Source: a virus. From it: a stretch of 25,930 nucleotides of DNA. The stretch spans positions 1-25,930 of the IMG/VR virus record IMGVR_UViG_3300020168_000351, one strand, 5' to 3'. The position numbers and the translations under genes are program-made. Below the pieces are notes generated by a model. It saw only the letters and a program-made list of their open reading frames with translations, did no database searches and was not told where the DNA came from. Shown in pieces: positions 6,472 through 18,422 of the stretch (positions are counted from its first letter, which is position 1; the number at the start of each line of letters is the position of its first letter).

Positions 6472-6945
6472 TTAAAATTTATAAAGATATTTTGCTATAT
6501 GCCCAACAAATGGTAGAAGCATCAATGCCATTATTAAATTCATTCCAGTATGTGCCATAGCTATTCGAAGGGTATCACCTCTAGGCCATCCGTCTGAAAC
6601 AAAAAAGCCAGCTAGCCATATCGTACCCGTGGTACCAATATTAGCCCCTAGAACTGCTGCAACTGCAGCTGGAAGAGGTAAAGCCCCAGATGCAACTAAT
6701 GCAATAATAGCTGTAGTTGAAAGAGAGGAGGATTGCCACAAAAGAGTCATGACTATTCCACCGACGAACATATAAATTGGATTACCTAAAAAGAATTGTA
6801 GGTGATCCATATTTCCCATCGACTTCATACCTCCCGAGAAGGTTTTAAGGCCAATATAAAATATTACCAACCCGACCAGAGCTGTAATTACAGGATTACC
6901 TAGATCCATCTTCTTTACCCTTTTCCATAGTTTTGTGTTACCCAT
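6472..6945 (-). CDS. Half-size Na+/phosphate cotransporter (PNaS) domain protein
   Basis: This 157-residue membrane protein has the two signatures of one PNaS repeat: QSSSLSTT (71-78) and GANIGTT (100-106). Helical stretches lie at about 19-34, 57-70, 77-98, 108-117 and 133-148. The family (NptA/SLC34 type) takes up phosphate with sodium using two inverted repeats in one chain. Here only one repeat is present, so it would have to dimerise or act with a host partner. I chose the ATG at 6945, preceded by AGGAAGTAGAA, over one six codons upstream that lacks a good ribosome-binding site. It follows a terminator, and no clear promoter is seen. A phosphate-uptake role during infection is inferred from the family. 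Confidence 0.75.
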   Translation of the reverse strand: MGNTKLWKRVKKMDLGNPVITALVGLVIFYIGLKTFSGGMKSMGNMDHLQFFLGNPIYMFVGGIVMTLLWQSSSLSTTAIIALVASGALPLPAAVAAVLGANIGTTGTIWLAGFFVSDGWPRGDTLRIAMAHTGMNLIMALMLLPFVGHIAKYLYKF

Positions 6946-6977
6946 TTCTACTTCCTGTTTCATTTATGAGTAATTAT

Positions 6978-10314: not shown

Positions 10315-10452
10315 TTATTCTTTTTTCCAGATAGTCCAAGCACCATAGGCAATAGCTATTCCTGCGGCTATCTTAGCGAGTGGGGCTAGAAACAAAGTCA
10401 TAAGACCTAAAGCTACCAGGGCAGCCCCATCCCATGAGGTTCTTTCCTTCAT
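10315..10452 (-). CDS. 45-residue membrane protein
   Basis: Reading from the ATG at 10452 gives MKERTSWDGAALVALG and onward to a TAA at 10315. The chain has 45 residues with a hydrophobic core from about residue 9 to 38 (ALVALGLMTLFLAPL, then AAGIAIAYGAWTI) and a WKKE end. It begins two bases after the stop of the preceding small membrane protein, so translation is probably coupled. It is one of three consecutive tiny membrane proteins at the end of the lipase-containing late operon. A holin-like or envelope role is possible. I have a recollection of similar small proteins in marine T4-like phages, but no function is established. Confidence 0.75.
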   Translation of the reverse strand: MKERTSWDGAALVALGLMTLFLAPLAKIAAGIAIAYGAWTIWKKE

Positions 10453-10453
10453 T

Positions 10454-10741
10454 CTACTTTTTACCCAATCCATTTTCGATTTCCTCCAATCGTTTTTCTA
10501 TGCTGTCTATTTTACTGGTTACCTTGGGATAGCGTTTACGCCAGGCATCAGGATCATCCTGTAACCAGTCCCAACCAAACCTATCCACAAGATAATCCAA
10601 TAGCTTGTCAAATTTAGACATAAGCCATAAAGCAGCGTGGGTATTTCTAAACCATGCCAAAAATGCTGCACCCACTAGAGATCCAGCAATGGCTGTATAG
10701 ATCCATAATGTGTCACCGAACATTCTTGATAGCATTTCCAT
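10454..10741 (-). CDS. Small membrane protein with cytoplasmic tail
   Basis: This 95-residue protein has one hydrophobic segment at about 12-30 (WIYTAIAGSLVGAAFLAWF). A charged, Trp-rich middle (FGWDWLQDDPDAWRKRY) and a coiled-coil-like C-terminus (KIDSIEKRLEEIENG) follow. The ATG at 10741 is preceded by GGAGGGATCTA and overlaps the upstream stop (TAATG). Its position between another one-helix protein and a 45-residue membrane protein suggests a complex. A holin or spanin-like role is possible but unproven. Confidence 0.75.
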   Translation of the reverse strand: MEMLSRMFGDTLWIYTAIAGSLVGAAFLAWFRNTHAALWLMSKFDKLLDYLVDRFGWDWLQDDPDAWRKRYPKVTSKIDSIEKRLEEIENGLGKK

Positions 10742-10962
10742 TAGATCCCTCCGTATGTACTCATAATAGCTGGACCAAACAAACTCATTACCCACATAAG
10801 AACTGCAATACTGAATATACCAATCAGTAGCCATTTCATTTTAAAGTCATCCACCTTCATTTGTAGTCCAAGCACTTCGTTCCCTAAAATTCGGATTGCA
10901 AGCTCAAACTTACCTTCCGGATGATCCACCGCTTCGATCATTTTTTGTTTTTCTTCAGCCAT
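10741..10962 (-). CDS. Small one-helix membrane protein
   Basis: This 73-residue protein has a soluble N-terminal part (MAEEKQKMIEAVDHPEGKFE) and one hydrophobic helix at about 43-65 (WLLIGIFSIAVLMWVMSLFG). The start at 10962 is supported by GGAGAAAGAAA before ATG, and it overlaps the end of the lipase gene by 8 bases. This tight coupling to the lipase points to joint production. Function unknown; small hydrophobic phage proteins next to lytic enzymes are often holins or their regulators. Confidence 0.75.
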   Translation of the reverse strand: MAEEKQKMIEAVDHPEGKFELAIRILGNEVLGLQMKVDDFKMKWLLIGIFSIAVLMWVMSLFGPAIMSTYGGI

Positions 10963-11683
10963 TTTCTTTCTCCAAATATTTGATATAATTCGACATGCCA
11001 TGATCTCTCGCTCCATCAAAGGGTTGTCTTTTTTTCCATGCTGCCATACGACCACGCCAACCATCTTTAAATCTTTGCCAACTTGTCATCTTCCTAATGT
11101 TTCCATAGAAGTTTATATAGCGCAACTCCCCATGATGTCTATATCCCATCCATTTAAACGGAACCTTAGGAACTATGTCATTGTTATTTACATGTCTATA
11201 ATGTGGGGCTTTAATTGATTTCACCCATTCAGCATTTCCTGCTCTTGGTGAGCCGTATGTGTATAGACCAGTAACTTTATCGCCCAACCTGCTTGCTGCG
11301 ATAGTAGCCATTGCACCACCCAGAGAATGACCACAGATATACAAATGGTAACACTTCTGGGCTTCCATGACCTCTAGAATGTTGTGCCAAATTTTATTAA
11401 CTTCTTCTTGGAATCCATTGTGGACTTTACCATGGCCATTGTGTGCTGCATCAGGCCAAGCATTTAGATCTGCTTTAACATCAGAAAATTCATCTGGCTC
11501 TGTGCCTCTAAAACATATAGCCATTTCCTTATCGTCCCAAATTACATGACACTGCGCACCTTTCACTTCGATGAACTTGTGACCTTTCCATCCCATTTTC
11601 TTATAAAGCTTTTTAGCTTCTTTCCCATCCAAATAAGCAATGCCGGCCAACTGCGACATTTCATAACATCTCTCAATAGACAT
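10955..11683 (-). CDS. Class-3 lipase (alpha/beta hydrolase)
   Basis: This 242-residue protein has the class-3 lipase hallmarks. The nucleophile elbow GHSLGG is at 118-123 (S120). The oxyanion-region CFRGTEPDEFSD starts at 58, NNNDIVP supplies D169, and DHGMSNY supplies H228, completing a Ser-Asp-His triad. Such enzymes hydrolyse acyl esters of glycerolipids. There is no signal peptide, so it would act in the cytoplasm on the inner membrane or need release through a holin. The ATG at 11683 lies 8 bases after the coiled-coil gene. Its place in a late operon with three tiny membrane proteins fits a role in membrane damage at lysis; a virion-associated lipase is an alternative. Confidence 0.85.
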   Translation of the reverse strand: MSIERCYEMSQLAGIAYLDGKEAKKLYKKMGWKGHKFIEVKGAQCHVIWDDKEMAICFRGTEPDEFSDVKADLNAWPDAAHNGHGKVHNGFQEEVNKIWHNILEVMEAQKCYHLYICGHSLGGAMATIAASRLGDKVTGLYTYGSPRAGNAEWVKSIKAPHYRHVNNNDIVPKVPFKWMGYRHHGELRYINFYGNIRKMTSWQRFKDGWRGRMAAWKKRQPFDGARDHGMSNYIKYLEKENG

Positions 11684-11691
11684 AATACCTC

Positions 11692-12387
11692 CTAGTCATT
11701 AAGTGGATTGTCTAAAGCCTCTTCAATTGTTTTCTTGATTTCGGTTTCAAGATCATCCATTTTAAATTCTAGATCAGCGGTCGTCTCTTTCATAACATCA
11801 CGTGTATCTTTTTCAGATTCTCTCATAGTCATTTCCACCTCCCTTAAGGTAGCGGAAGTTTCTGATCTAATTTCGCCCATAGTATCTCTGATCTTTTCAA
11901 GCTCTAGTTTTAGGTTGTTCGACATTACCTCTAGTTCGTCTTGAGCTTCTTTTAGATCAGCCGCGGCTTCAGCCAATTGTTGTTTTGTTTTATTCTCAAA
12001 TTTATCTATAGTATTTTCGGTCTTAATTTCAAATGATTCGATTGAATCCTTTGTCTTATCAACTGATTCATCTACCTTAGCATCTAAACGATCAAGGGTA
12101 CCTTCCATCTTCAGCAGGTCGTCCTTTAGATCGTTTTTAATATCTCTGGTATACGTTATTGCTTCATCAATCCGTAGCATAGACTCATCTAGCTTTTGTA
12201 TCACTAAAGCATTCTCTGCAGCTATAGCATCGATGTCAATCTCTTGTATAATCTCTTTCATATCCATGTAGTCTTTGTAGAACTCAAAGCCGGCCCAAGC
12301 TGCACCGCCTAACGTGGATAATGCCGTCAGAACGGCGAACATTTTTCCGCCCCTGAATGTTGTGCCAGCAAATTCAAATTCTGCCAT
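11692..12387 (-). CDS. Membrane-anchored long coiled-coil protein
   Basis: This 231-residue protein has a hydrophobic segment at about 16-34 (MFAVLTALSTLGGAAWAGF). About 190 residues of highly charged, heptad-like sequence follow, rich in Glu, Lys, Asp and Leu, and typical of a long coiled coil. It starts right after the stop of the beta-rich gene (TAAATG), with GGAGAAAGA as ribosome-binding site. It would sit in the inner membrane with a rod on one side. A spanin-like bridging rod is conceivable, but there is no lipobox and no paired partner, so this is speculation. Neighbouring genes encode secreted or membrane proteins and a lipase. Confidence 0.75.
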   Translation of the reverse strand: MAEFEFAGTTFRGGKMFAVLTALSTLGGAAWAGFEFYKDYMDMKEIIQEIDIDAIAAENALVIQKLDESMLRIDEAITYTRDIKNDLKDDLLKMEGTLDRLDAKVDESVDKTKDSIESFEIKTENTIDKFENKTKQQLAEAAADLKEAQDELEVMSNNLKLELEKIRDTMGEIRSETSATLREVEMTMRESEKDTRDVMKETTADLEFKMDDLETEIKKTIEEALDNPLND

Positions 12388-12708
12388 TTATCTTTCTCCT
12401 AATGGTATTTCTATTCCTGCTACTATACCCTTTAACTTATAATCTTCTATCCCCGGCATAGCAAAAAAGTTACCAGCTTTAAATCTAGCCATTGGAACTA
12501 TGTGGGCTGAAGTGTATCCCGTCATAAATCCCAATTCAATGTTATCATTTAGATCCCAACTTAAATAATTACTTATTTTCTTTTCACTATTTACAAGTAA
12601 TCCGTAATTATAACGACCTCGCTCACATGTGGCATATGGATGAATCATATTATAGCCGTCATCCATATTCAAATGGAGTGACAGCGCCAACCCTAAAAGA
12701 CAGTTCAT
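12388..12708 (-). CDS. Small beta-rich protein, possible outer-membrane barrel type
   Basis: This 106-residue protein has a short hydrophobic start (MNCLLGLALSLHL). Alternating aromatic and polar residues follow (HPYATCERGRYNYGLLVNSE), with HPxATxxxxxYNxGLxxNS near 23-41 and a C-terminal VAGIEIPLG strand. The pattern resembles small phage proteins related to outer-membrane enzymes such as lipid A deacylases. It is too short for a full barrel with confidence, and the signal peptide is marginal. The start overlaps the previous stop by four bases (ATGA). Function unassigned. Confidence 0.65.
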   Translation of the reverse strand: MNCLLGLALSLHLNMDDGYNMIHPYATCERGRYNYGLLVNSEKKISNYLSWDLNDNIELGFMTGYTSAHIVPMARFKAGNFFAMPGIEDYKLKGIVAGIEIPLGER

Positions 12709-14468
12709 CTATTGTCGTATTGCATCCTTACTAGTGCGTTATGTTTTTCGTCACTTGCCCCGTTAAAGAATCTTGAATTTGGGTTATCATGATTTTTTTG
12801 GTTTGGGTAAATCTCCTTTGGTTTATAAAAATCTGCGTCAGCCATTTGAAGTTGTTGGTATTGGCTGAATAATGGGTTATATCCTAAAAGTGCGGATCGT
12901 GCATCTTCATCATCACTGCCTTCAAATGCCTTTGCTACCAGCTCGGCTTCTTCCATAGTACTCATAGGTTCAGCAATTTCTTCTTTTGGTTCTGGTAGTT
13001 TAAGTTCGAATGTAGGAGATGTTACTTGACTTATAATATTATTTAAAATATCATTTGCGGTTTCTACATTTACATCATCCACAATTATTTCTAACTGCAA
13101 AACATTCTCTTCTAAATTTAAAGCTGCAAATTGTTGTTGTGAAACATTAGAAGCAATTGACTGTACGTTCTCTATTAATTGCTCCTCCATTTCAAAGGAT
13201 AGTTCAGCAGACTCTTGGGCCTGCTCCATTACAAAACTAGTGGATTGTTGGTCTGATTGAATAGATGATGTTGTAGCACTGCTTATGGCATTATTGGCCG
13301 CGGCAGCAGCGTCAGCAACAGCGCCTCTAGCCACATCCAACGGATTAATCCGTACCCTTGGGCTCGTTCCAGTTTCCGCCACAGTGTCATTTAATATCTC
13401 TGGTTCAAGATCGCCAGCAACTTCTATGGGCTCTTCCAACACTTCTTCAATGGCATCTTCTATTACCTCTACTACTGGTTCTGGTCCTGGTTGAGATTCT
13501 TCAATAACTTTCTCAGTACGTGGAGTTTCATTAACTTCTTCAATTGTTCCTGTGTCATTTGTCATCTCCGCCATTGCTAGTTGTTCGGCCAACATGGCCT
13601 CTTGTTGTTCTTGTAGTGCCGTAGCATATCCAGGACATCTAGCATCATTCAAAGGATCACTACAATCCAATGGTTCTTTATAAACAAAGATGGAATAGAT
13701 ACCAGCTTCTCTAAACTCTGGACCCCAGTAGCCAGCCCAGTAACCAGCATCTTTACCCTCAACTTCTAGCGTAAGTGTATCAACTTTATCGCCCATTAAA
13801 AAAGGATCATACCACTGCATTCCATTTTTTTGTTCCCAGTCACTTATTGAATATGAGTAATCCCACTCTCTTTCATCAAGGACATTTCCATCATTATCTT
13901 TGACAATGACTCTTACATATAATGGGTCTTGATTATTGATTTGATTTGCACTTGTATCATTAGCATTGTAATTTTTAACTTTCCATTGCCATAAGTATCC
14001 AACAACTTGAACACCAGCAACTTTTAAAGCATCATTTATAATGTCTTGTGTTTGAGAAACTATTGTATTATTAAATCCGAAACGAATAGCTCCATCACCA
14101 TTAGTACCTATATTAGCACATGAACCACCAGACGTTCCACCCCAAGATCCATCTCCGCCATTAGAAGCTGAAGGATCTAAACATCCAGTTGTGGCTGTCC
14201 AAGAGTCTATAGAGTAAGTTGTATTTTCACTTTCAAACCATCCCGTTCCTAAAAACCCACCGTCTCCAGTCGTAGTTGCAGTAACATTATTATCAATCAG
14301 CTGTTCCATATATGTGCGTTCATTATATTCCAACAGATCATCAGGATTCGATGGAGCAGCATACAGCGTTCCCATATCAATATCTTGTTGGGTTAGGTCC
14401 TGCGCGCTAGAGTATTGCGAGAAGAGCCAAGAGCATACCAAGACCGATGAAAGTGTTTGCTTTAGCAT
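12705..14468 (-). CDS. Large secreted protein with beta domain and acidic linker
   Basis: From the ATG at 14468 this is a 587-residue protein with a standard signal peptide (about 1-22, ending SSAQ). An ATG 51 bases upstream is also possible. A Gly/Ser/Thr-rich part (about 60-125) leads to a beta-sandwich-like domain (about 140-265). A Cys pair follows in CSDPLNDARCPGYA (about 269-282). After this come an acidic Glu/Pro-rich linker (about 305-370), an Ala-rich helix and a mostly helical C-terminus. Cys-Pro-Gly-Tyr-Ala segments of this kind are familiar to me from marine T4-like phage proteins of unknown role. The gene overlaps the end of the Thr/Asn-repeat gene by 62 bases. An envelope, periplasmic or virion-surface location is inferred from the signal peptide and late promoter. 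Confidence 0.7.
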   Translation of the reverse strand: MLKQTLSSVLVCSWLFSQYSSAQDLTQQDIDMGTLYAAPSNPDDLLEYNERTYMEQLIDNNVTATTTGDGGFLGTGWFESENTTYSIDSWTATTGCLDPSASNGGDGSWGGTSGGSCANIGTNGDGAIRFGFNNTIVSQTQDIINDALKVAGVQVVGYLWQWKVKNYNANDTSANQINNQDPLYVRVIVKDNDGNVLDEREWDYSYSISDWEQKNGMQWYDPFLMGDKVDTLTLEVEGKDAGYWAGYWGPEFREAGIYSIFVYKEPLDCSDPLNDARCPGYATALQEQQEAMLAEQLAMAEMTNDTGTIEEVNETPRTEKVIEESQPGPEPVVEVIEDAIEEVLEEPIEVAGDLEPEILNDTVAETGTSPRVRINPLDVARGAVADAAAAANNAISSATTSSIQSDQQSTSFVMEQAQESAELSFEMEEQLIENVQSIASNVSQQQFAALNLEENVLQLEIIVDDVNVETANDILNNIISQVTSPTFELKLPEPKEEIAEPMSTMEEAELVAKAFEGSDDEDARSALLGYNPLFSQYQQLQMADADFYKPKEIYPNQKNHDNPNSRFFNGASDEKHNALVRMQYDNR

Positions 14469-15396
14469 GGGGTGTAGTTTCTTCTGTTTGTGGAATAGGT
14501 TTTTCTTCTGGGAATTCATCCCATAGTGCCTGTGCTTGGTCTCCTATAGTACCATCAAATGGGCAAGGGGTGCCAGCCATTCTCATAGCGTTGAATACCG
14601 CTGCATCTTGACACATTAAAGCTACCGCAGCAACCTTCATACCCATATTATAAAGAGCTTTAGAGTTCTTCAGTCTCTCACAGTTTATATCTCTTATGTG
14701 TCCACCACCGCTCATCCCAAGTATTTGGGTTTGCACAGAACTAGACCATGTCACTGTACAGTTGTCATTACCACCTGACATAATGGTAGGTGCTATTGCT
14801 GACGGCGGTGGGGATTCAATCTTTTGAGTAACGTCTGATGTAGATGTATTTTGATTTACATTGGCATTAGTATTGCTAGACGTACTACTCATGGTAGTAT
14901 TACTAGTGTTATTGTTTGTATTAACATTAGTATTTGTATTAGTATTTGTACTAGTATTCGTATTGGTATTGGTATTTGTACTAGTATTTGTGTTGGTGTT
15001 ATCCGTAGTCACACTAGATGTATTATCAGAAGTGCTATTAACCGTGCTAGTGGTAGTGTTATCTATAGTCGAAGTATTCGTATTAGTATTTGTACTAGTA
15101 TTGGTATTTGTATTATTTGTCGTACTAGTATTCGTATTCGTGTTTGTCGAAGTGGTTGTACTATCTACAGTACTAGTATTCGTGTTTGTATTAGTATTTG
15201 TATTTGTACTAGTGATCGTCGTATCATTAGTATTCGTATTATCAGTAGTTACAGTGCTTGTTGTCGTGGTCGTACTGTCATTATTTGTTTCTACATAGCT
15301 AGTACTATCAAAATTACCATCTGCGTCATTAGCAACTTGGGCCTGAACAACAGATGATGCCATAACGAAGAGAACTGCGGACAGAAGTCTCTTCAT
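14407..15396 (-). CDS. Secreted Thr/Asn-repeat protein with C-terminal membrane helix
   Basis: This 329-residue protein has a signal peptide at 1-20 (VQAQ cleavage region). A low-complexity stretch of Thr-Asn and Ser-Thr repeats lies at about 38-189. A compact C-terminal domain at about 195-300 includes ILGMSGG, IRDINCERLK and MAGTPCPFDG with four or more Cys, and a hydrophobic tail (314-329) ends the chain. I recognise the C-terminal domain from marine T4-like phages; its function is unknown. It is the first gene behind a consensus late promoter, with AAGGAAAG as ribosome-binding site. The Thr/Asn stretch would form an extended, hydrophilic stalk outside the inner membrane. Confidence 0.75.
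   Translation of the reverse strand: MKRLLSAVLFVMASSVVQAQVANDADGNFDSTSYVETNNDSTTTTTSTVTTDNTNTNDTTITSTNTNTNTNTNTSTVDSTTTSTNTNTNTSTTNNTNTNTSTNTNTNTSTIDNTTTSTVNSTSDNTSSVTTDNTNTNTSTNTNTNTNTSTNTNTNTNVNTNNNTSNTTMSSTSSNTNANVNQNTSTSDVTQKIESPPPSAIAPTIMSGGNDNCTVTWSSSVQTQILGMSGGGHIRDINCERLKNSKALYNMGMKVAAVALMCQDAAVFNAMRMAGTPCPFDGTIGDQAQALWDEFPEEKPIPQTEETTPHAKANTFIGLGMLLALLAIL
14830..15285 (-). repeat. Degenerate repeat tract encoding (Thr-Asn)n
   Basis: About 450 bases consist of variants of ACN AAY codon pairs with interspersed AGT ACN. The Thr codon keeps changing between ACT, ACA, ACG and ACC, so the repeat is clear at protein level but irregular at DNA level. It is not a CRISPR array or a perfect tandem repeat. 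Confidence 0.85.
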
Positions 15397-15428: not shown

Positions 15429-15436
15429 TATTTATA
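15429..15436 (-). promoter_or_regulatory. T4-type late promoter
   Basis: On the minus strand the element is TATAAATA, identical to the T4 late -10 consensus. It lies 33 bases upstream of the Thr/Asn-repeat gene and would drive the 15396-10315 operon. Confidence 0.7.
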
Positions 15437-15446
15437 CAAAAATCCT

Positions 15447-15878
15447 CTAGAAACTTTGTTTATCTACTTTTGGGGGCTCCCAGGGCTGGGGATCGGTCCA
15501 GGGTTGGAAGTTCCCTGCAGGCGAAAGTAAACATATCATACCATCGGGAAACTGAATTGTAATAGAAGCGTTTTTGGTTTCCATATTCCACCAAACAGCA
15601 ACTGCACCTCTAAAATACCTATTACTTGAAGCTTCCTTAATAGCTCCATTACCTACAAACATTAATCTTTCGTTACTATTCTTTTGGAGGTTAAATACAA
15701 TAGGAAAATAATCACAAGGTGCGTTGATTAAAACACCCTTCCCACCCGGTTGAGTTTCAGGTTCGGGTAATTCAGGCTTAGCAGGAGGCTCTAATTGTTG
15801 AGCACTTAATGCTGTTCCGGCAAAAATAAAACATGCTAGAAATATTGCAGTTCTTATAATACTATATCTTCCATACAT
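15447..15878 (-). CDS. Secreted hypothetical protein with Pro-rich linker
   Basis: This 143-residue protein has a signal peptide (about 1-26, ending ALSAQ). A Pro/Glu-rich linker (27-47) precedes a compact domain with two Cys (C55 and C116) that could form a disulfide in the periplasm. The C-terminus contains QPWTDPQPWEPPK. The start is supported by AGAGGAGAATATA before ATG. It lies between the porin terminator and the late promoter of the next operon. A possible degenerate late element (CATAAATA at 15954-15961) lies upstream, but the terminator stands between them. Family not recognised. Confidence 0.75.
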   Translation of the reverse strand: MYGRYSIIRTAIFLACFIFAGTALSAQQLEPPAKPELPEPETQPGGKGVLINAPCDYFPIVFNLQKNSNERLMFVGNGAIKEASSNRYFRGAVAVWWNMETKNASITIQFPDGMICLLSPAGNFQPWTDPQPWEPPKVDKQSF

Positions 15879-15967: not shown

Positions 15968-16759
15968 TTAGAAGCTAAAAGTAACACCTACTGTTGGTGC
16001 AAAGTCTTCGTTATCAATGTTATAATTAGCGCCGGCGCTTACTTCAGCACCGCCAATATTATAAACATACTCACCGCCGATGTTTTGCATAATTTCATCG
16101 GTATCACCGTTCAGATAAGCTGTGATTCCAAGAGCTGAAGCAGTTGTTTCGAAACCAAGTTTCTCCGCATCAATATCATATGACATTGCAGCACCTACTC
16201 CAACACCTGCAGCTTCAAATCCACCTACACCAGCACCAAGTACTGTGTTTTCAGTGTCGAAGTTATAATCTGCCGCTGCAGTAACATTCATACCCATTAT
16301 GCCAAGTGTATAAGAACCTTGCAAGTTGCTTAGATCCGTTACATCTTTTGTCCAGTCAGTAAATCCAACTGCAACAGCTGCATCACCAACTTTAACAGCT
16401 ACTGATTCAGTCATTGCTGGTTTAGATAGTGTCTGGTTACCTTCGGCATCTGGCATCAAACCGTTGTCGTCACCAAGTGCGACACCGATGCCACCAACAC
16501 CTGTACCTACGGTCCAGTTATCCAGTACAACAGCATTATTATCTGTTGCACTAAAGTCTAGGTCTACAGAGGCAAGACCAGATGCATCGATGCCAAGGTC
16601 TAGCCCCATAGATCCGGCCATGTCGCCGGCTGCAGTCTCTTTCAAAGTTAATCCAACTTCTCCAGAAATAGTTGGCCCTGCACTGGCCGTTGTGTCTTCA
16701 GCAAATGCTACGCCGGCGAACGATGTAGCGATTGCGGATGTGATAAGTAACTTTTTCAT
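15968..16759 (-). CDS. Phage-encoded outer-membrane porin-like beta-barrel protein
   Basis: This 263-residue protein begins with a textbook signal peptide (MKKLLITSAIATSFAGVAFA, cleavage after residue 20). It consists of alternating short beta strands rich in Gly, Ala, Val and Asp and ends in VGVTFSF. The terminal Phe is the usual signal for assembly by the BAM machinery. The style resembles small alphaproteobacterial porins. Phage-coded outer-membrane proteins are known to alter host surface permeability or block further infection; which applies here is not shown. It lies 15 bases after the two-helix membrane protein, in the unit headed by the tmRNA, and is closed by a terminator. Confidence 0.8.
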   Translation of the reverse strand: MKKLLITSAIATSFAGVAFAEDTTASAGPTISGEVGLTLKETAAGDMAGSMGLDLGIDASGLASVDLDFSATDNNAVVLDNWTVGTGVGGIGVALGDDNGLMPDAEGNQTLSKPAMTESVAVKVGDAAVAVGFTDWTKDVTDLSNLQGSYTLGIMGMNVTAAADYNFDTENTVLGAGVGGFEAAGVGVGAAMSYDIDAEKLGFETTASALGITAYLNGDTDEIMQNIGGEYVYNIGGAEVSAGANYNIDNEDFAPTVGVTFSF

Positions 16760-17005: not shown

Positions 17006-17070
17006 AATTGTTATTCCTTTATTTGTTATTCGCCACACTTCTGTTGCTAGGCAGTGGCCGCCCCCTGTGA

Positions 17071-17115
17071 TTATGCTGCTAGAGCAAATCCAGATGGTGC
17101 AAAATTATCGTTTGC
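17071..17115 (-). other. tmRNA tag reading frame, ANDNFAPSGFALAA-stop
   Basis: Beginning at the resume codon GCA (17115-17113), the frame reads Ala-Asn-Asp-Asn-Phe-Ala-Pro-Ser-Gly-Phe-Ala-Leu-Ala-Ala and ends at UAA. The AND start and the ALAA end are hallmarks of tmRNA proteolysis tags; the terminal Leu-Ala-Ala is the ClpXP recognition end in known tags. CUAGCAG at the tag end can pair with CUGCCUAG after the stop, with one bulged base, as in the helix that holds the stop codon in E. coli tmRNA. Confidence 0.92.
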
Positions 17116-17162
17116 ATTTGTGTTTTGTAAACTGGACTACATGTCGATCCTATTTCAGCCCC

Positions 17163-17242
17163 ATCAAAAACACACCTTCTTGGCCCGACTAAGGGTTGTG
17201 TGCTGCACCACACCTATTGTGCAGATAGGCGAAGTGTGTTTT
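17163..17242 (-). other. tmRNA spacer hairpin removed during maturation
   Basis: Between the encoded CCA and the GGGG start lie 80 bases. The ends, AAAACACAC-UUC and GAA-G-GUGUGUUUU, pair with one bulged G and extend the acceptor stem, holding both halves together before cleavage. A second smaller hairpin (ACAAUAGGUGUGGUGCAG region) lies inside. Known permuted tmRNAs lose this part by processing. Confidence 0.8.
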
Positions 17243-17302
17243 TGGTGGAGCTGCTGGGTACCGCCCCCAGGTCCATATAACCTTTATAACGTCTACTTCT
17301 TT

Positions 17303-17331
17303 ATTTAATCACATATCCGAGAGATTGTAAA
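17303..17331 (-). promoter_or_regulatory. Early-type promoter for the tmRNA unit
   Basis: On the minus strand, TTTACA (17326-17331), a 17-base spacer and TTAAAT (17303-17308). The expected transcription start near 17296 falls just before the tRNA-like 3' half, as needed for a tmRNA precursor. Confidence 0.75.
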
Positions 17332-17406
17332 TACCGTAAAACTATATTTTTACTTCGTGACATAATTATCACTTTCCAATTCTCGTCATATGCTATGGTT
17401 ATATTC

Positions 17407-17811: not shown

Positions 17812-17965
17812 ATCCAAGTCTCCTCATTATTTCCATACGTTTTTCATGGTCGTATGAAATCCATTCTGTTATCTCATCTATCGTTCTACCACACCCGATG
17901 CATTTTCTATTCTGACCAATCTTACATATCTGAATGCATGGTGTAACATATAAATCCTTACTCAT
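17759..17965 (-). CDS. DUF1289-family small Cys protein
   Basis: This 68-residue protein shows PCIQICKIGQNRKCIGCGRT at residues 9-28, followed by DEITEW. This is the DUF1289 signature PCI-x2-C-x7-C-x-GC-x-RT-x2-EI-x2-W. The four Cys (10, 14, 22, 25) probably bind a metal or Fe-S cluster; its function is unknown. DUF1289 is common in proteobacterial genomes and less so in phages, which suggests capture from a host. The tail (KRKKRSHNRY) is strongly basic. The ATG overlaps the endolysin stop by 8 bases, so translation is probably coupled. Confidence 0.85.
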   Translation of the reverse strand: MSKDLYVTPCIQICKIGQNRKCIGCGRTIDEITEWISYDHEKRMEIMRRLGYGKRKKRSHNRYINLGN

Positions 17966-18422
17966 AGAATAGGTGCGAACCTATTACTCGAACCAGTTTC
18001 ATTTCTTTCGACCAAGCTGGATTAACCCAATTAGCATGGTAATGATTTGCACCAAACGATGGATCCTCAACATTTCCTATCATAACGTCCCGTGCTATAA
18101 CTTGGGCCTTTTCCCAAGCCTTTTCATCAGTTGGGGTATGATCCTTAATCATGTGGGTCCAACTGAATTGTTTATCCTGATATACCACACCGCAAATAGT
18201 ATCTGGCCAACGTTGATCTTTAACTCGGTTAATAGTAACTTGTGCTACTGCTATTTGGCCCTCTGAAACTTCACCACGTGCTTCATGGTAAATATTTAGT
18301 GCCATGCATTTATGTTGTTCCGGATCTACTTCCGGTCGAAGTGATAATGCTGCCGCAAATAATCCTGCTGCTATTCCCATGGTAATTAACCCGCTCGCTG
18401 TGTTTATTATTTTACGTTTCAT
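17958..18422 (-). CDS. SleB-type cell-wall hydrolase with N-terminal membrane anchor
   Basis: This 154-residue protein has an N-terminal hydrophobic segment (about 8-27) and then a Hydrolase_2/SleB domain. NIYHEARGE at 43-51 contains the catalytic Glu47. The segments VAQVTINRV, CGVVYQDKQFSW and DPSFGANHYHANW are typical of the family. SleB-type enzymes are peptidoglycan lytic transglycosylases. The N-terminal segment looks like a signal-anchor, so a SAR-type endolysin released from the membrane is possible. It is followed by the DUF1289 gene, overlapping it by 8 bases. The only promoter seen is early-type. Ribosome-binding site AAGG is modest. Confidence 0.88.
   Translation of the reverse strand: MKRKIINTASGLITMGIAAGLFAAALSLRPEVDPEQHKCMALNIYHEARGEVSEGQIAVAQVTINRVKDQRWPDTICGVVYQDKQFSWTHMIKDHTPTDEKAWEKAQVIARDVMIGNVEDPSFGANHYHANWVNPAWSKEMKLVRVIGSHLFYE

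Follow-up and report, generated by a model that had tools for sequence, protein, structure and literature searches.

Does a class-3 lipase that a T4-like marine phage encodes together with small membrane proteins serve to lyse the host? We addressed this question for the IMG/VR record IMGVR_UViG_3300020168_000351, whose 25,930 bases were analysed as a whole (hereafter the window). The record is from a T4-like marine phage, and its DnaB-type helicase shares ~70% identity with the Phage C48C1 enzyme and 61-64% with the enzymes of Synechococcus phages. Because relatives hold the same genes among known lysis genes, the lipase probably helps to burst the host. Based on these comparisons of sequences, we consider it fairly probable that the lipase belongs, with its small membrane partners, to a late lysis module of marine T4-like phages.

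Two other elements of the window are recorded here as side observations. The minus strand encodes, at 6472-6963, a 163-aa protein with a Na+/Pi-cotransporter domain (PF02690, 7.8e-16) and, at 17028-17334, a permuted tmRNA gene of the alphaproteobacterial type (Rfam RF01849, 82.1 bits; RF04321, 83.3 bits), which was missed by ARAGORN. The latter may point to alphaproteobacteria as the host or as the source of the gene.

Organization of the lipase operon

The lipase gene belongs to a co-directional operon with the gene order p329, p604, 106-aa gene, cc231, lipase, m73, m95 and m52 (Table 1), in which neighbouring genes overlap or are separated by at most 8 nt. From the lipase onwards the genes overlap throughout (lipase-m73, -8 nt; m73-m95, -1 nt; m95-m52, -20 nt), and good Shine-Dalgarno sequences are present at all four starts. 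We take m73, m95 and m52 to be real genes since all three have conserved relatives. A previous sequence-only reading of this DNA had listed membrane proteins of 73, 95 and 45 residues, encoded by overlapping genes after the lipase. The first two sizes stand, whereas the third protein has 52 residues, given that an upstream ATG has a GGAGG site and that the family starts there. The same reading had placed a separate SleB-type endolysin about 6 kb away; it is found on the same strand at a distance of 6.3 kb. No spanin match was obtained in the 26-kb window. The interval from the SleB gene to the lipase operon holds two minus-strand genes (15968-16759 and 15447-15878) whose products have signal-peptide-like starts and no Pfam match, the former product being porin-like in look as judged from its sequence.

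Table 1. Positions and properties of the lipase operon, its upstream motif and the endolysin gene in the window.
Feature	Position	Strand	Properties
SleB-type cell wall hydrolase (endolysin)	17958..18422	-	PF07486, 2.3e-27; N-terminal hydrophobic segment (read from sequence)
TATAAATA, T4-type late promoter motif	15429..15436	-	begins 40 nt upstream of p329
p329	14407..15396	-	first gene of the operon; exported (read from sequence)
p604, 604-aa protein	12705..14519	-	in lipase operon; signal-peptide-like start (read from sequence)
106-aa protein	12388..12708	-	in lipase operon
cc231	11692..12387	-	in lipase operon; N-terminal TM and long coiled coil (read from sequence)
class-3 lipase	10955..11683	-	242 aa; S120/D169/H228; no signal peptide; basic WQRFKDGWRGR ahead of the catalytic His
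m73	10741..10962	-	soluble N-terminal part, C-terminal TM at ~residues 45-63; overlaps lipase and m95
m95	10454..10741	-	single N-terminal TM at ~11-31, charged C-terminal helices; holin candidate
m52	10315..10473	-	52 aa; hydrophobic stretch, basic ends, possible hairpin; second holin candidate

The lipase and its relatives

The lipase matches Pfam Lipase_3 (PF01764) with an E-value of 6.8e-24 and 84.8 bits, against a curated cut-off of 22, and a PHROG esterase/lipase family with 2.1e-24; the patatin family is absent among its Pfam matches. For comparison, 98 full-length frames were clustered at 70% identity into 18 clusters. The G-x-S-x-G motif is present in 98 of 98 homologues, and none of the 18 cluster representatives departs from S120, D169 and H228. 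The triad is thus intact, with S120 as the catalytic serine, and the original description of a Ser-Asp-His class-3 lipase devoid of a signal peptide was correct. No TM segment was predicted in any homologue. The structure model reached a pLDDT of 85.7 and a pTM of 0.87, and the solved proteins nearest to it in sequence and fold are class-3 lipases of fungi and a feruloyl esterase. By fold alone, triglyceride lipases and the feruloyl esterase come first, and plant phospholipase A1 ranks lower.

Within the basic segment, W202, Q203, K206, D207 and G211 are likewise invariant in the 18 representatives, and this segment might bind anionic lipid. A looser WQRFKDGWRGR-like segment occurs in 21 of the 70 genome-contig relatives examined (80 fetched), so that it is not strictly phage-specific. 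Bacterial relatives of the lipase, 35-44% identical, are widespread in cells of many phyla, and a metabolic origin of the enzyme is therefore possible. In the tree, the lipases of loci L072 and L080 branch beside cellular lipases, at a deep split from the window type; as this tree is unrooted, we do not claim that they were recruited independently.

Gene neighbourhoods of lipase and m95

Viral contig scans yielded 59 lipase loci and 60 m95 loci in overlapping sets, which were then mapped using profiles. In this map the lipase keeps company with m95 and m52 despite many changes of gene order and flanks. One arrangement (the L036-L050 group) comprises a T4-type lysozyme, lipase, m95 and often m52, with spanins within 3 kb in six loci. 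Another consists of GH19 endolysin, i-spanin, o-spanin, m95 and lipase (L074-L076, and L080 with a CHAP-like protein and m52), a third (the L032 group) of lipase, m95, m52 and GH19, and a fourth of i-spanin, o-spanin and lipase (L024 and L139, whose lipases are identical in the tree and are counted once). In 16 further m95 loci no lipase is nearby, and m95 follows the spanin pair; in relatives of this kind it is found directly behind GH19 endolysin, i-spanin and o-spanin. The endolysins and Rz-like spanins of the cassettes are independently named as such by PHROGs. The cassette lysozyme matches T4 lysozyme, and since PHROGs also matches tail-lysozyme families, its name rests on its size and place as well. 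An export signal is lacking in the lipase as well as in the T4-type and GH19 endolysins that neighbour it in relatives.

Of the 18 lipase clusters, 14 have m95 no more than 2 kb from the lipase; m52 is found up to 3 kb away in 13, and an endolysin or a spanin at the same range in 5. Any of m95, endolysin and spanin is nearby in 15 of the 18 clusters, and none of them was found nearby in the other 3. Among the 58 loci found by lipase alone and with a scored lipase frame (the 59th had none), 41 have m95 next to the lipase and 19 have an endolysin no more than 3 kb away. The 60 m95 loci comprise 37 with a lipase near, 16 with spanins, 4 with both and 3 with neither; in these last three, m95 lies ~220 bases or less from the locus edge.

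When 32 long records were searched whole, lipase was found in 26, m95 in 26 and o-spanin in 17. Lipase and m95 are adjacent in 17 of the 20 records that hold both, and ~24 kb apart in G022-G024. An o-spanin is also present in 11 of the 26 lipase-bearing long records, at 13-50 kb from the lipase in 7 of these 11. They include G006, a sister record with a near-identical locus (L023), in which an i-/o-spanin pair lies 16 kb beyond the lipase. Membership of the lipase in a lysis module, as first suggested from the window, is backed by this comparison, in which lipase and m95 appear among endolysins and spanins. A separate lysis route that replaces the usual one is not: relatives carry lipase, endolysin and spanins together, and the lipase therefore looks like an added arm of ordinary lysis.

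A late promoter motif upstream of the operon

As given in a part of a review (PMC2984593), the T4 late promoter is TATAAATA and the late promoter of cyanophage S-PM2 is NATAAATA. We found TATAAATA no more than 110 nt ahead of p329 in each of the 18 distinct upstream regions from relatives, compared with 127 of 2026 genes (6.3%) in the same loci and 2.5% of shuffles; being related in sequence, these 18 regions are not 18 independent events, though their spacing and flanks still vary widely. Locus L010 has the p329 block inverted, and a separate TATAAATA is found there ~66 nt upstream of the lipase. Over the whole window the count of the motif is that of chance (3 versus 3.2 expected), and it is informative only by its position before p329 in relatives. 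One of the three exact window copies stands ahead of the lipase operon, and one ahead of an operon with a virion structural gene. The position of the motif upstream of p329 in relatives and of the lipase in L010 makes it likely that the lipase operon is expressed late. Late production, which had been presumed in the sequence-only reading, thus gains the backing of comparison.

Holin candidates among the small membrane proteins

With one N-terminal TM and a charged C-terminus, m95 is within the size and layout of small holins, which have 1-3 TM; m52 has one long hydrophobic stretch that is interrupted by Pro and possibly forms a hairpin. In the latter case m52 would be similar to class II holins as these are described in a passage of PMC9636201. 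Neither protein matched a described holin family in Pfam or PHROGs profiles. The hint of XhlA obtained for m95 (E 0.02) is sub-threshold, and for this reason we propose that m95 works like a holin and not that it is a member of a known family. A PDB sequence search with m95 returned nothing significant, and its structure model was poor (mean pLDDT 57.5) and hence left out of the fold search. GTA_holin_3TM was found in 0 of 33 records by a search that worked on Mosig, and T4 holin T in 0 of 33 by one that lacked a positive control and says little. The designation of the small proteins as holin-like partners finds support by comparison, in their layout and their neighbours.

A recoded stop codon within m95 was considered and rejected, as the one in-frame stop reported in six long records falls beyond the gene end in the two loci inspected (L008 and L134). 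In many loci m95, m52 or the lipase is adjoined by a small protein with an EF-hand-like motif (a sub-threshold Pfam match) and two TM helices, found at 5245-5571 of L114 and in its relatives. It is possibly a calcium-sensing membrane protein of the lipase/m95 module.

Related genes in cultured phages

A relative of p329 in pelagiphage Mosig adjoins a gene of a 3TM holin family, and in HTVC023P another precedes an M15 peptidase by four genes. The neighbours of the Mosig relative gave no alignment in support of homology to p604 or cc231, and p329 alone has a homologue there. Some p329 homologues in cultured SAR11 phages are located near terminase.

The Prochlorococcus phage P-SSM2 (Kyanoviridae) encodes a shorter lipase, PSSM2_200, which is ~32% identical over 60% of the query. 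As with the homologous lipase of the window, its gene is overlapped by that of a small protein, here of 70 aa and with a hydrophobic N-terminus, and it lies upstream of genes for a coiled-coil/TM protein and gp61 primase. Beside PSSM2_200 there was no match to an endolysin, m95 or m52, and the coiled-coil protein is a very weak i-spanin match only. In the OM43 phage Melnitz (MZ577097.1; L121, 11995-13234) we found an Rz-like i-spanin/o-spanin pair and, next to it, an m52 homologue, all annotated as hypothetical; these precede a coiled-coil/TM protein similar to that of P-SSM2, followed by primase. Shewanella phage QDWS carries a more distantly related lipase, whose gene overlaps a lipoprotein-like one; a GH19 endolysin is encoded a few genes away.

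Proposed function and alternatives

In our best reading, the lipase would be the accessory lipid-hydrolysing arm of a holin-endolysin-spanin lysis system in which m95 and/or m52 are unrecognised holins. One or both of these proteins would trigger lysis and open the inner membrane, and the lipase, which has no export signal, would through its putative activity hydrolyse membrane phospholipids at the time of lysis. Its target could be the inner membrane, reached from the cytoplasm, or the inner leaflet of the outer membrane, reached by exit through the holin lesion as for signal-less endolysins. Working alongside endolysin and spanins, the lipase may render the collapse of the envelope faster or complete it. 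Several observations speak against this reading: the three lipase clusters that lack lysis neighbours, the long records in which m95 or the o-spanin lies far from the lipase, the widespread bacterial relatives, the nearness of the fold to triglyceride lipases, the missing match of m95 and m52 to known holin families, the poor model of m95, and the surroundings of the P-SSM2 lipase. In a broader form, which we put forward tentatively, this would be an unrecognised lysis system common to many marine T4-like phages, in which a dedicated class-3 lipase complements endolysin and spanins by dissolving membrane lipid in a distinct step, and with m95 and m52 as founders of two new holin families.

Alternatively, the lipase could be an auxiliary metabolic enzyme that releases fatty acids from the lipids of the host, to yield energy or to remodel the membrane during infection, its position among lysis genes being a mere convenience of the late operon. 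Such a role would agree with a cytoplasmic enzyme lacking an export signal, with a triglyceride-lipase-like fold, with relatives in many bacterial phyla and with the 3 of 18 lipase clusters that stand apart from lysis genes. We consider it unlikely in view of the late promoter motif and of the repeated association of the lipase with endolysin, spanins and m95 in differing orders and flanks.

The same motif would be expected of a virion or tail component acting at entry, as it is for structural genes, and one window copy does precede an operon with a virion structural gene; however, the lipase operon contains no recognised structural gene and the lipase groups with endolysin and spanins instead, which makes this explanation improbable. 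We give equally little credence to a cassette for superinfection exclusion or membrane remodelling, in which lipase and small membrane proteins would alter the envelope during infection: several exported or membrane proteins are indeed encoded in a single operon, but the motif and the neighbouring lysis genes argue against it. Replacement of the spanins by the lipase in outer-membrane disruption, suggested by the missing spanin match in the window and by m95 often neighbouring either lipase or spanins, is highly improbable and as a general rule refuted by the long records with both lipase and o-spanin, including G006, and opposed also by the four m95 loci in which lipase and spanins both adjoin m95.

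Comparison with known lysis systems

Lysis triggering in marine T4-like phages is poorly known. T4-like cyanophages are described as lacking the T4 r genes, which act in superinfection and lysis inhibition, in a review whose main text does not contain the word 'holin' (PMC2984593). For Melnitz, a curli pore was proposed as a pinholin-like channel for lysis control, in a paper whose main text has no word beginning with 'holin' (PMC9004378). If the favoured reading of a lysis module is true, it provides concrete holin and spanin candidates, and lipid hydrolysis joins the lysis of Gram-negative marine hosts. As both P-SSM2 and Melnitz are cultured, it can be tested.

We found no description of a class-3 lipase in a lysis module of a Gram-negative phage in the open-access literature; the mentions of lipase or phospholipase in parts of PMC5411513, PMC7504290, PMC7432712, PMC5587285, PMC8951688 and PMC10057898 are irrelevant here. 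The precedents that come closest are LysB of mycobacteriophages and the patatin cassette that has been proposed for phage WO. According to passages of PMC6116005 and PMC5707550, LysB is a lipid-cutting hydrolase encoded with the lysis genes and added to holin and endolysin. The window lipase, as a putative lipid hydrolase of a lysis module, would share this with LysB, and we liken the two by function only. LysB acts on the mycolic outer layer of mycobacteria and there fills the role of the spanins of other phages, whereas the window enzyme is a Lipase_3 protein of marine T4-like phages that also have spanins.

The cassette of the Wolbachia phage WO was proposed from genomes and, as set out in a part of PMC9203015, has no canonical endolysin or spanins. 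There, a phospholipase-like enzyme adjoins a small protein that has a single TM at its N-terminus and ends in a charged coiled coil, a layout similar to that of m95, and a relative of this protein adjoins a lysozyme. The window differs from WO in encoding a class-3 lipase and not a patatin, and in that endolysin and spanins are present in the system. With the canonical Gram-negative holin-endolysin-spanin module, the cassettes of the relatives share the same PHROGs-identified endolysins and Rz-like spanins. Unlike that module, the present system adds a lipase, and its holin candidates stand outside the described families.
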